From Cinnamomum chago (lineage: Eukaryota; Streptophyta; Magnoliopsida; Laurales; Lauraceae), in NCBI GenBank assembly GCA_038049695.1, contig CP142451.1, positions 67,399,501-67,463,500 of the forward strand: 64,000 nucleotides of DNA. Reading direction: 5' to 3'. The notes beneath the pieces were generated by a model, which worked only from the letters and a program-made list of their open reading frames with translations, made no database searches and was not told the origin of the DNA. Positions 47,212 through 53,838 of the stretch are shown in pieces. The position numbers were made by a program, and so were the translations under genes. How positions within the stretch are numbered: the first letter of the stretch is position 1; every line of letters starts with the position of its first letter.

Positions 47212-47234
47212 CACTACACCAAAAACAGCGAACA

Positions 47235-47700
47235 GGAAGTGTTCAAAACCGTTCCTATGAGAAATAGGAACGGTCCAAATCCGCTGCTAATCGCCATGTT
47301 CCTAAACCATTGGAACGGCTCTAAACCGCGCCAAATTCAAACTTTAGGAACTGTTGAAAACCGTTCCAATATTCTTAGAACCGTTCCAAATGTTGAATGT
47401 TGAGACGGTTCTTAACACTGCCAAATGACCCTTTACCGTTCCAAATACAAAAATTTGGAATGGTTGTAGTCCTTTTTGGAACGGTCCTAAACACTTATAT
47501 TTTCCAAAACCGTTCCAAATTTAGAATTTTGATAAAGTTATAAATACTTTCAGATTTTGTAGAACCGTTCCAATTTTAAGTGTCCCAATTAGTTAGTCTA
47601 TTTTGGAACGCTTTTAAACACTTTCAAAATTTCTAAAATCATTCCAAATTCTAATTTTTGATATTGGATCAGTTTTTACTATGCTAAATGACAATTTGGA
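47235..47700. repeat. CACTA subterminal repeats
   Basis: A dozen or more copies of AACCGTTCC or GGAACGGTT in both orientations, some decayed. A shorter cluster lies at the other end (53735-53805: GAAACGG, GGAACGGG, ACCGTTTC). In En/Spm-type elements such motifs bind the transposase partner protein. 47700-48346 beyond it is AT-rich then strongly pyrimidine-rich (47960-48180) and non-coding. Confidence 0.8.
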
Positions 47701-48346
47701 ACCATCCCTAATTTAATTATTATTATCATTTTTTAAATAATTTCACCGTAATTTTTTGTAGTTGCCATTAAATTCATTTTTTTTTAAATCACAAAAAAAA
47801 CCATAAATGGTAGCATTCACACCTGCACATTAATATCACACGTCATCTGTTACTTTATTTAAAAAATCAATGTACTAACTTGAATTTAAATGTGCAATTT
47901 ACAATATTTAGAAATACATAACACATATAACTCAAAATCAACCCAGAACTTTTGGAAAAGGTTTAATTCCTCCTCTTCCACCACCTGCACACACCCACTA
48001 GCTGCACCACCCTGCACACACTCACCGGCACACCCACTGCCTCCTCTTCTTTATTTCTTTCCCCCCTCTCTTCTCTCCTTCTCCCCTGCACCCATGCCTG
48101 TGCACGTCCCTCTCCCTTTCCTTTTCTTCTCTTCTCTTCCTTCCCCCACTTCTCTCCTTCCTTTCTTCCTCCCCCTGCCACCTGTACCCGCTGCACCATC
48201 ATTAGGCTCAGTATGCAACAAAAAGAAGGGGGAAGAAGACATCATCAATAGGCTTAAGAACTGAAATACAGAACAGCAAAAGCCAAATTGGTGTCAGAGT
48301 TATACGACCTTTCAATTTGTATAGCAAAAACCAATGGATAACTTAC

Positions 48347-50114
48347 TGGTTGATCGAAATGTATGTGGCCAGATCCCTTGAGATGGCATAAATCTGCCCA
48401 CTTGCATGACCAAAGTACCTATTACCTTCCTCTCCAAATTTCCAATATTCAGGCTCATGATACTTCACATTCCTACAAACAGAAACATATTTACAGATAG
48501 CAAATGCTGAAGAGAACAGTTCTGGTGAAGAGCTCCAAGAGGTTTACTTTTATGCCAAAACTAGCCCTGACTTCATACAACTTATATAGACTCTAGGCTT
48601 TAATCTGTGCCGGGCAAGAGTTGTCGCTAGCATACCTGCATATTAAAAAGACGTAAACATCATTTATAATACAAATCTTAAGGATCCCAAAGAGACCCAT
48701 TATACCCATCACCATCAAAATAATGAATCCTAGCCTTCATTTTCATTTTACTTAATTTTGTTTCTTTGGCTAGGCAATAGAAATTTTATTGGATACTACT
48801 TCAAATTTAATTGTAAGCCATATGAACAAATATCCTTGCCATACATACCTAAATCGACATGAACATCATCATCCACCTTCACATAGAACTCTGCATCCCA
48901 TTTGGCAACCGCAGTGAAAAAAAATGTCTTCGTTCTTGCAGATAGCTCATGATATCCTTCAATATGCTCCTGTAAGACAGAAAAAAAGTTGCATTGAATG
49001 TGATTTGGACCTTGAGTTTGATAACAGTAATGGATTTTGCCTGAGCACAAAGGAAGATTATGGGCCTGACCAGCCTCAGAAAGTCATTATGATGAGACTC
49101 CTCTAAGTCTATGGCTAGATCTAAAATGCTTTTGGAGGTAACGCTGCAGTAAAGAATGCAATTTATGATTCAGTTCTCAGTTTCATGCGCCATCTGTAGG
49201 AGAAAGAAAGTATCATGTCACTGGTTTCAGGAGAGAAGCATGTGAGAGTGGTGTTTTATGTGATCATCATTAGCAAATAGTGGGGATCACTTTCATTGAA
49301 CCATCACACATTAATTGTGATGCATATTATGAACTGTAGGAATGTATTGCTAACCAACAGGAGAAACAAAGCAGCAACTTCAAGTGAATACTAGGATAGC
49401 ATATCTGTAACACCAAGAGAAAGAAGCTTCACACATCTGAAGATCAGCTAAATTATGATATCTTATCTGACATGAGACGTCTCTCATCGCAAGAGAAATT
49501 GCACAACCCCCTTTCTTTTCAGGTGGAAAATGGATAATAAGATCCCCACTAGTGGTCCATCAGAAGGACCATCTACTTGCAACTTGGTTAATTTAAACCA
49601 AACTAAGAACTTGTTTCTCGTCACAGGAGAAATTCCCATCAACTGGATTCTTTATAATCAAAGAACTTTATCTTCTTTAATTAGTATGTGGCAAGTAAAG
49701 TTTCCCTTAATTAAGACAAACCCACCCAGCCTTTTTGTTCTGTTCACATGTGAAGTAGGGATCCACATGCCCCCTATGCCCCCAAGCCCAGCAAATCCAC
49801 TTTTTTCTTTTCTGTTCAGTTTGACACTTTGACCTTGTTTCAGACCTTACTTGTTTAGAATAAACTATACTTTATACATATGGTAAGAAAGAAATTGATA
49901 TACAGTATGACAACACAAATAAAACAGATCTTTTAAGATGATTTTTCTTGTTTGGAAAGAGTGTGGACCTGCGACAACAGGATGAAAATATAGAAGAGGT
50001 GAAGTAACAAACATATAAGATTGCAAGGATGCCCCAAATTAACAATGCACCTGTGGCCAATTGTGAAACGAATGACAATCCCCTTCTCTCGTTCTAGTTG
50101 TTGACGCTTTGCTC
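48347..50114 (-). pseudogene. Captured beta-1,3-galactosyltransferase (GT31) fragment
   Basis: Five consecutive exons with matching phases and GT-AG borders: 50114-50051 (AKRQQLEREKGIVIRFTIGH), 49144-49072 (SILDLAIDLEESHHNDFLRL), 48969-48849 (HIEGYHELSARTKTFF ... FYVKVDDDVHVDLG, with the DDD metal-binding motif), 48635-48548 (MLATTLARHRLKPRVYI) and 48472-48347 ([20 protein letters not shown]). This is a plant GT31 enzyme of the B3GALT7/8 type, normally a Golgi protein acting on arabinogalactan or N-glycans. The N-terminal membrane anchor and the C-terminal exons are missing. In exon four a Gln codon has become TAA (48552-48550), so the fragment cannot make enzyme. Confidence 0.88.
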
Positions 50115-50559
50115 CTAATTGAACATAAAAAGCAAGTGGCACTAAATATCAATAAGTGAAACTTCCAAATGCCAACATGGAAGAAATTTTAGTTATCATC
50201 TCAATAGAATTATAAATGTTCTTGCCAACTAAGATGATTACTACAATAAACAAAACGATATGATAATAAACCAAAATAATGCACATTAACATACAAAGAT
50301 GAAAGAAATATCAGATGTCCCTGAGATAATCATCCTGATTTGCTTTGATGATACCAAATAGGCATAAAAGTTTAGTCACCCAAGCCCCCTACAGTAACTA
50401 GATTCTAACACAATTAGATCAGACCATTTCTGTTGACATATTCAGGCTTCATGAATAATATAATATAGACATGACTTTGATTTCATAACATTCATCAGGA
50501 GTTTTCATGAAAACACTCAATCCATATTAGAATATTCCATTCTAAAACACTCAATAGGG

Positions 50560-52665: not shown

Positions 52666-53042
52666 CTGTATGTTCAGGAAAACAAGATAGAATGAAAATA
52701 CATAAATCAGCAAAACTTATCATTATAGAATTGAACCAACTCGGAACTTTGCCATCAAAATAATTAGGGATGAAAACACAAATACCCAAAGGACGCAACA
52801 CGGAAAAATTGGTATAGGTCCAAGATTTATTTCCACTTTTGTACCACCCCTGGTCCAGACGATGGAACCAAACTTAATAAATCTGGCCTGTGTCTGGGCA
52901 TGGGTCAGCAGAGCACGCAGCAGATATAAAATCCAGGAAATGAAAAGCAGAGAAAGAGGATTTCTGAAAATGGCCGGCTTGAGTTTTCCACGAATTACCG
53001 AAAGAAGATGAGAGTGCCATTTAGGTAAAATCAGCAGCCACT

Positions 53043-53160
53043 GCTATCTTGCTACCAGTGACGCTTTTAACCCGAGCAACGTCATGGGAGTCACAGAGAA
53101 TGACGCTAATCTAAGACGGGTGAAGCCCTTCTTTGCGAACTTGCAGATGTTATCCTCAAC
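53043..53160 (-). pseudogene. Captured ribosomal protein S13 (uS15) exon
   Basis: Begins after a TTTTCTTAG acceptor and reads VEDNICKFAKKGFT, a one-base loss, then (with a TAG in place of a Gln codon) IGVIL-like ISVILCDSHDVARVKSVTG, closing with SKI. This is the centre of cytosolic 40S ribosomal protein S13, here with substitutions. Similarity ends at about 53045 without a splice donor, so this is the capture breakpoint. The short size, frameshift and stop show it is non-functional. Confidence 0.8.
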
Positions 53161-53834
53161 CTAAGAAAATCAAAAGAGAATGCACGTTCAGATCAAATCT
53201 ATTATTGAGTTCTCGGATTCACACCAAAAAAGAGGCCCACCTCTGATTTGTGATTGATCCTGTCTCAAGCCAATTGATCTCTCTGTTTCAGCACAACCCG
53301 TCTTCCACAATGCTCTGTTTCTGAAGTCCTAGTATGATCCAAATCCTAGGATCTAATGTCCTATCTCGTTCTAGTTTTGCCCCAATCCTTCACCCCAAGG
53401 GCTTTGTCTTCTCCGACAATGGTGAGAAGCTCAAACGGCAGTATCGGACTCTCCTCAAGATCCCAAACCAGCGTCGAAGTTTATAGATCTAAGAAAACCT
53501 CAACGGCGATTGCCGAACCTGAATCGAAATCATACTTGTCTTCTGCAGTCGATCTTCAAGAGACTTTTGTTGAAGGATTTCTGAGAGAGAAGAAAGGGTT
53601 TATGAGAAAAGGAGGGAGGGACGAAATGGCGCGAATGAAAGAGAGTGAGAAATGTAGAATGGTGCGATGGAACGCTTTTTACCTTTTAGGAGGCGTCAAG
53701 ATTTGGGAAATGAGAACCCCGCCCATTTGTTTCGAAACGGTTTTAACTTCAGGAACGGGTTGAAACCTATTCTAAATAGAAAGGGCTTCTGACCGTTTCA
53801 AACTAATGTTCCTGATTGCCAATTTTGATGTAGT
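53161..53834. other. Terminal part of the CACTA element
   Basis: Between the RPS13 exon and the terminus. A plus-strand frame of about 120 codons (53401-53763) is Ser/Lys/Glu-rich and matches nothing I know. On the minus strand the same stretch is rich in CT and resembles a plant 5' UTR. It could be a fourth captured piece. The last 100 bases are subterminal repeats. Confidence 0.4.
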
Positions 53835-53838
53835 GTTC

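Follow-up and report, generated by a model that had tools for sequence, protein, structure and literature searches.

The stretch of Cinnamomum chago DNA analyzed here (the window: 64,000 nucleotides, positions 67,399,501 to 67,463,500 of contig CP142451.1) contains, at positions 47212-53835, a transposable element that most probably is a non-autonomous Pack-CACTA element assembled in several steps; judging from the sequence comparisons, we estimate the probability of this reading at roughly 0.86. An earlier note on this DNA had identified a Pack-CACTA element carrying fragments of three unrelated host genes, and this identification holds, given the CACTA ends, the lack of a transposase and the three unlinked donor genes. 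What that note missed is that the element, as far as can be judged from its relatives, is a hybrid of CACTA lineages that took up their pieces in steps (on Pack-TYPE and Pack-CACTA elements, Catoni et al. are said to have reported in 2019). How transposons that encode no enzyme acquire host genes is still debated. Given that one genome here holds two loci in the state before a capture, the element and three relatives in the state after it, the donor genes and a recent burst of six copies, the competing capture models make differing, checkable predictions. Below, element position 1 corresponds to window position 47212, and L-numbers and C-numbers denote, respectively, loci and contigs of the searched genome (1.061 Gb in 14 contigs).

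The boundaries of the element, with CACTA ends and a TTC duplication, had been placed exactly to the base, and the insertion has the layout TTC / CACTACACCAAAA ... TTTTGATGTAGTG / TTC. Both terminal inverted repeats (TIRs) start with CACTA (CACTACACCAAAA / CACTACATCAAAA), as in the CACTA superfamily. Reconstruction of the empty site (the flanks minus one TTC) restores an unbroken reverse-transcriptase open reading frame of a Ty3/gypsy element through the insertion point. The previously reported subterminal repeats are confirmed and cluster at the element ends: exact AACCGTTCC occurs 5 times in the window compared to 0.32 expected (5 was reached in 0 of 100 shuffles), and when one mismatch is allowed, 12 occurrences fall within the first 520 bp of the element, 3 within the last 520 bp and none between, with the observed end counts matched in 0 of 1000 shuffles of the left or the right end. 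The claim that a transposase is missing also stands, given that the longest stop-to-stop frame fully within the element has 137 aa and that a Pfam scan of 27 of the 86 listed frames detected none (two more of the 86 are the gypsy frames); in the interval 47000-54000, Rfam models gave nothing up to E 0.1. The genome contains at least 150 Transposase_21 matches above the cut-off (150 of 1658 first-look candidates were scored), many in frames of more than 700 aa. Several sets of these frames share the same scores and lengths (737, 740, 777, 784 aa), which suggests recently active CACTA families.

The search for other copies with the same termini, which had been proposed as a check, revealed at least six full-length copies including the one in the window (on C1, C2, C4 twice, C7 and C9), all 99.89-100% identical to the window copy; copy counts are lower bounds given that 40 of 2745 first-look candidates were scored. 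The existence of five further near-identical full-length copies implies that the structure of the element is more than chance. Matching 3-bp duplications flank five of the six copies (TTC, AAA, AGG, TGG and, in L003, TGG beside an end whose first CA is eroded), and the five other copies agree with the window copy in GT31 exon 4 and the RPS13 exon down to the lesions. Given that the pairwise divergence (K) among the six copies (15 pairs) is 0.00015-0.00076, that is, no more than 0.0008 and below the value of 0.0090 for the long terminal repeats (LTRs) of the host retrotransposon, the sequences suggest very recent transposition of the family, with mobility possibly persisting to the present.

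The cargo comprises nine exons, all on the minus strand (one of RPS13, three of LACS8 and five of the B3GALT7-like GT31 gene), in agreement with the earlier description of exons of three unrelated host genes in a single orientation. It had been further stated that the introns are kept and that seven of the nine exons are free of lesions, and both statements are correct: all six introns between neighboring exons of the same gene retain GT...AG, and the damage is confined to the RPS13 exon (a 1-nt deletion and a stop) and GT31 exon 4 (a stop). The LACS8/9-type assignment stands with respect to synthetase identity and can be refined, the named matches being LACS8. In single frames, Pfam yields two Galactosyl_T matches for GT31 (one just under the cut-off) and a weak AMP-binding_C match for LACS8; the cargo was identified with PDB sequences (RPS13 and LACS-like enzymes) and a protein database, and the Pfam set included no frame over the RPS13 exon. 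The PDB matches for GT31 were designed repeat proteins only and were judged to be an artefact. The GT31 cargo protein is 93.6% identical to the product of one Persea gene and 89.6% to that of one Cinnamomum gene (other Lauraceae paralogues, 84-86.5%), and the LACS8 cargo protein is 92.4% identical to Persea; outside Lauraceae, the cargo shows 80-85% identity to Magnolia and 81-82% to Asimina proteins. With Lauraceae proteins as the nearest plant matches, the genome searched probably belongs to this family. The best E-values in the GT31 and LACS8 protein searches belong to Tanacetum and Quercus proteins that contain repeats of the matched part and show lower identity, and no Lauraceae protein appeared among the 36 matches listed for RPS13.

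The check for parental genes was also run and placed the donors at three separate loci that are mutually unlinked and all located elsewhere than the element; a normal locus with all three fragments adjacent was not found. The GT31 donor (L017, C6:3.86 Mb) is 97.2% identical over element positions 1077-3331, and Persea residues 1-398 are fully covered exon by exon; the LACS8 donor (L019, C2:81.29 Mb) is 96.5% identical over 4290-5695, the stretch examined spanning residues 429-679; and the RPS13 donor (L030, C6:71.69 Mb) is 90% identical over 123 bp. Against L017, the GT31 segment (48288-50542) differs at 17 of 472 exon sites versus 21 of 1776 intron sites (Fisher p 0.0009). The exon excess consists mostly of changes private to the element; gene conversion by a paralogue is not supported as its cause, given that 3 of the 17 exon and 7 of the 21 intron differences match the paralogue L020. 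Two loci, L015 and L018, contain RPS13 and LACS8 fragments side by side without recognizable CACTA ends, which is what would be expected if the sequence were an ordinary host locus or an assembly artefact and its resemblance to a CACTA element coincidental. This possibility appears extremely remote given the three unlinked donors, the presence of copies at six different sites, five of them flanked by matching duplications, and the restored target frame. Furthermore, because L015 and L018 share the lesions and junctions of the element, they are its relatives rather than donors. In these loci, the composite of RPS13, the sequence denoted piece X and LACS8 (L015 3526-7966; L018, in reverse, 4292-8129) is followed by a common 1.9 kb of other sequence.

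RPS13 and LACS8 lie in the right half of the element. The 1-nt deletion and the TAG stop of RPS13 are common to five lineages, namely the element, L014, L015, L018 and L038, and given that L038 lacks LACS8, the RPS13 fragment was broken before LACS8 arrived. A protein search with RPS13 listed fragments that contain a single TAG at three loci as well, C1:87.5 Mb, C3:47.8 Mb and C10:58.3 Mb (among these three, the sequence read was that at C10, which is L038); a diverged copy of the right end of the element is located no more than about 1.5 kb from each of these fragments. By these comparisons, RPS13 is the oldest captured piece, and its frameshift and stop are inherited. All 13 candidates found in the search with the LACS8 part were scored: twelve are the six copies, L014, L015, L018, the donor, L038 and L040, and the thirteenth is a 54-bp match. 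L038 (C10:58.34 Mb) combines a CACTA-like right end and the RPS13 fragment with a direct junction of element 4222-4289 to 5688-5800, without LACS8; in L040 (C1:27.88 Mb), which likewise lacks LACS8, 3978-4289 continues into this right flank apart from a short deletion. Compared to L038, the LACS8 insert separates GGGTTT from CATGGG without the loss of a single base, and TGGGTC at its right edge is common to the donor and the element. Because L038 and L040 carry the flanks joined, LACS8 entered existing sequence almost without loss; because the four LACS8-bearing lineages (the element, L014, L015 and L018) have identical junctions, a single capture event accounts for all of them. From position 3348 to its right end, the element matches L014 except for an insertion in the latter. 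The reverse explanation of these extra 277 bp, a deletion in the element, was rejected given that the flanking GGGCCCGTTTGG inverted ends and a TTAG repeat suggest a MITE-like insertion.

Two scenarios of capture are to be compared here. In the published model of Pack-CACTA formation (PMC8903248, PMC13317346, as excerpted), a gene piece becomes flanked by two related elements that have inserted beside it, and the whole transposes as a unit once the inner ends of these elements are lost. Such tandem insertion would account for the derivation of the GT31 half and the LACS8/RPS13 half from two distinct lineages; as the route for all host pieces, it nevertheless seems unlikely. From two elements with independent inner deletions, a gap or a duplication would be expected, whereas the LACS8 flanks are continuous base for base in L038 and with the short deletion in L040; the middle 5.6 kb of the element contains no subterminal motif even with one mismatch allowed; and a search of the interior with both ends returned a single 16-bp match (E 0.48). 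Filler DNA copied at a break would be the simpler origin of the LACS8 piece than two elements with independent deletions.

The left half has a different ancestry. L016 (C8:4.41 Mb) begins with a CACTA left end, pieces of which are 74-83% identical to the left end of the element (71% over all aligned sites). Its left GT31 junction is identical to that of the element and is followed by 3.04 kb of the donor gene, a stretch that extends 0.77 kb further on the right than the one in the element, and then by sequence of an abundant group of CACTA elements, the A family. Among the sites polarized by a paralogue, 3 derived states are common to the element and L016; the private ones number 6 in the donor, 16 in the element and 14 in L016. 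Given that only 3 derived sites are shared, the element and L016 diverged soon after the GT31 capture. The element leaves the donor GT31 sequence at position 3331, continues with a 16-bp filler and becomes L014-like from 3348. For 12 of its 16 nt, the filler matches a stretch within the 100 bp on its left, a result equaled by 1 of 1000 shuffled versions. Templated fillers of this kind are a typical mark of polymerase-theta end joining. The filler in L016 was considered as a second templated case and is not supported as such (longest match 8 nt, reached in 118 of 1000 shuffles). The left 986 bp of the element agree with A23 of the A family at 99.7% of the aligned sites (99.1% by BLAST). A23 has no recognized right end within 8.7 kb, and the right end of the element was not found in the A-family loci L022-L025, L027 and L028 and was represented in L026 by a 19-bp match only. 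The left 986 bp are carried at least by L022-L025 and 20 further loci of this family; two of its elements are 99.7% identical over 5.7 kb, with no right end found within 8.7 kb, and the stretch of L023 has no frame of 130 aa or more past the first 1.5 kb. The A-family interior may itself be captured DNA.

Divergence of each part of the element from its donor or closest relative, with bootstrap intervals, provides an order of events. The K values are 0.099 (0.043-0.160) for RPS13 versus its donor, 0.049 (0.030-0.074) for piece X versus L040, 0.029 (0.022-0.036) for the right half versus L014, 0.0234 (0.016-0.032) for LACS8 and 0.0171 (0.012-0.022) for GT31 versus their donors, 0.0090 (0.005-0.0135) for the host LTR pair and 0.0031 (0-0.007) for the left end versus A23. 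The order of the layers would thus be RPS13, then LACS8 and GT31 (their intervals overlap), then the left end and finally the burst of six copies. At substitution rates of 1.3e-8, 7e-9 and 3e-9 per site and year, the host LTR pair would be, respectively, 0.35, 0.64 and 1.5 million years old. This direct comparison with the donors replaced dating of the capture by decay alone, that is, by conserved-site replacements set against LTR divergence.

The comparisons show the following steps. A CACTA lineage with an RPS13 exon already damaged by the deletion and the stop (step 1) received a 1.4-kb genomic LACS8 piece between stretches that are contiguous in two other loci (step 2), presumably when a break was repaired and gene DNA was copied in to fill it. 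A genomic GT31 piece was carried by a separate lineage that has a CACTA left end (step 3), and the two were fused through the 16-bp filler, with GT31 on the left and LACS8/RPS13 on the right (step 4), probably by end joining of two elements with a templated filler. The left end, near-identical to that of an abundant related element, represents step 5, and the six near-identical copies, with the window copy within the gypsy reverse-transcriptase frame, step 6, for which mobilization in trans by one of the many CACTA transposases of the genome is the proposed mechanism, the ends and subterminal repeats being putative binding sites. That genes entered the CACTA interior by break repair and that fusion by polymerase-theta-like templated end joining followed, so that the family is a stratified record of both routes, is a tentative interpretation to which we give slightly less than an even chance. 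If it is correct, tandem insertion is not the only route for Pack-CACTA formation.

Several observations weigh against stepwise assembly within CACTA elements or against individual steps. The composite in L015 and L018 lacks recognizable CACTA ends in 9.9 kb, so part of the assembly may lie outside a CACTA element; the right TIR of L038 is eroded; and L040, which showed no RPS13 match and no element end in 1.6 kb, is therefore possibly not an element and may instead be the source of piece X. The right junction of LACS8 can be placed only within a few bases. L016 is known without its right end, and the single GT31 capture rests on the shared junction, derived sites being few (3 shared, 6 donor-specific); the genome searched yielded no locus free of GT31, one candidate (L039, C4:60.32 Mb) having been rejected as A-family interior. 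The age intervals of LACS8, the L014 split and GT31 overlap, the divergence of the right half from L014 being as large as that of LACS8 from its donor, and the K value of RPS13 is based on 122 bp. Finally, L005 has no matching duplication (TAT/ATA), and no particular transposase is tied to the ends of the element.

The earlier note further proposed that the exons could be spliced into a novel chimera or give rise to small RNAs. Several features are compatible with a working chimeric gene or with a small-RNA source acting on RPS13, LACS8 and GT31: the splice sites are retained; the exons follow the direction of the host gypsy frame, so that sense read-through is possible; and the LACS8 piece is little changed, with 3 replacements among 85 sites conserved in at least 95% of homologues, a count exceeded by at least 6 of 117 homologues, so that it is not demonstrably decayed. 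Precedents include a comparable soybean CACTA element with exons spliced into transcripts (PMC1947982, as excerpted) and maize Helitrons, Pack-MULEs and Sirevirus elements with captured genes, described as reservoirs of small interfering RNAs in the excerpt of PMC13317346. The frames, however, are incompatible beyond LACS8 plus one GT31 exon: when all captured LACS8 and GT31 exons are spliced in order, a stop appears six codons into GT31 exon 1, and among the 217 ordered exon subsets mixing LACS8 and GT31, 21 keep the native frame throughout and 7 of these are stop-free, each with GT31 exon 3 as the sole GT31 exon and at most 198 aa long. GT31 exon 4 has its own stop, and the RPS13 piece is broken and cut, its match ending within the exon, so that the native splice donor is missing; the proposed chimeric protein is not supported. 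Replacements at conserved sites amount to 8 of 113 in GT31 (7 without T140S, which is common to the Lauraceae relatives of the donor) and 5 of 34 in RPS13, compared to 1 of 113 (GT31) and 1 of 85 (LACS8) in the Persea genes; more GT31 replacements than in the cargo occur in 3 of 117 homologues, and the RPS13 share is exceeded in 0 of 36. A search for a long inverted repeat found none. A copy inside a retrotransposon is expected to be silenced, which counts against a functional reading of the window copy. A gene or regulatory function appears very improbable, and the cargo is best described as a passenger load without a supported product.

Table 1. Features of the CACTA element and its surroundings (window positions, unless a locus is named).
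Feature	Position	Strand	Remarks
Complete non-autonomous CACTA element, 6,624 bp	47212..53835	.	TIRs, target site duplication (TSD), restored target frame, 5 further near-identical copies
TSD TTC, left	47209..47211	.	
TSD TTC, right	53836..53838	.	
Left TIR CACTACACCAAAA	47212..47224	+	
Right TIR, window copy CACTACATCAAAA (one private change)	53823..53835	-	other five copies CACTACACCAAAA
Left subterminal AACCGTTCC-type repeats, 12 at <=1 mismatch, both orientations	47247..47613	.	
Right subterminal repeats, 3 at <=1 mismatch, one orientation	53669..53760	.	
Left-end module, element 1-986	47212..48197	+	98-99% identical sequence in at least 24 other loci; K versus A23, 0.0031
Element 987-1076	48198..48287	+	among L014-L040 only in GT31-bearing L016
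Captured GT31 segment, element 1077-3331	48288..50542	-	97.2% to gene at C6:3.86 Mb
GT31 exon 1 of 5 captured	50051..50114	-	
GT31 exon 2	49071..49143	-	
GT31 exon 3	48849..48969	-	
GT31 exon 4	48548..48635	-	premature TAA (C in donor gene and L016)
GT31 exon 5	48347..48472	-	
16-bp filler, join of two parent elements	50543..50558	.	12 nt match stretch <=100 bp leftward
103-bp dispersed repeat, left edge of L014-like half	50559..50661	.	
Piece X, left part, element 3978-4289	51189..51500	.	uninterrupted into right part in L040 (whole) and L038 (4222 onward)
Captured LACS8 segment, element 4290-5687, within piece X	51501..52898	-	
LACS8 exon 1 of 3 captured	52534..52665	-	identical to donor, 132/132
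LACS8 exon 2	52322..52456	-	
LACS8 exon 3	51515..51721	-	
Piece X, right part, element 5688-5833	52899..53044	.	
Captured RPS13 segment (exon 53045-53160)	53045..53167	-	deletion and stop common to L014, L015, L018, L038
Right-end module, element 6475-6624	53686..53835	-	95% to L014
Host Ty3/gypsy frame, upstream of insertion	53803..56385	-	RVT_1; protease below cut-off; last codons enter CACTA end
Host Ty3/gypsy frame, downstream	45880..47286	-	RNase H domains; first codons within CACTA end
MITE-like insertion in L014	L014 3336-3614		GGGCCCGTTTGG inverted ends, TTAG repeats

The host of the window copy is a large Ty3/gypsy-type element on the minus strand (37876-63372), with LTRs at 37876-39446 and 61803-63372 that are 99.0% identical. 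A sequence resembling a primer-binding site, TGGCACACCCGGTGGGAC, adjoins the LTR; a clear target duplication is not seen, and given the lack of a clear 5-bp duplication, the assignment of the two LTRs to one and the same element is unproven. The 103-bp dispersed repeat is matched twice, less than 5 kb apart, in L014+L029, L018 and L024, and once in L021 and L034.

Among the literature matches listed, none dealt with this element or with CACTA capture in Lauraceae. Capture of several genes, in contrast, is a known phenomenon, as the earlier note had stated: the soybean element Tgm-Express1 in the wp allele captured multiple genes that are spliced into transcripts (PMC1947982), and maize Pack-TYPE elements, Pack-CACTA most of all, often derive from several source loci (PMC8903248). 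According to the excerpted description, on which the comparison is based, Tgm-Express1 resembles the present element in being a 5.7-kb CACTA element that contains exons and introns of several unrelated genes with the splice sites kept; it differs in carrying pieces of five genes rather than three and in residing in an intron of an expressed gene, from which transcripts were cloned, and that description mentions no pre-capture relatives, unlike those found here (PMC1947982). In Chenopodium, CACTA elements likewise contain host gene fragments and subterminal repeats, but each element described in the excerpt holds fragments of one gene, located upstream of the transposase domain (PMC8978399). 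The metazoan Pack-TIRs are similar in that a break inside a TIR element is filled with DNA copied from elsewhere, with microhomology or short new insertions at the breakpoints; they are, however, animal elements for which, in the excerpted text, gap filling was argued for single-copy cases and 56.9% are located close to the donor (PMC8277862). The present element, by contrast, has its donors at other loci and occurs in multiple copies. The Pack-CACTA elements of Arabidopsis, rice and maize, as excerpted, share with this element the CACTA ends, the 3-bp duplication, the lack of a transposase, gene pieces from multiple loci and the existence of related elements, some of which contain a given gene piece that others lack (PMC8903248); the difference is that, in the present case, a new left end, an interior insertion with flanks contiguous in two other loci and the fusion of two lineages through a templated filler are all combined, each separately diverged. 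Multi-gene capture by CACTA elements being already known, it is the resolved sequence of assembly steps that the present case adds.

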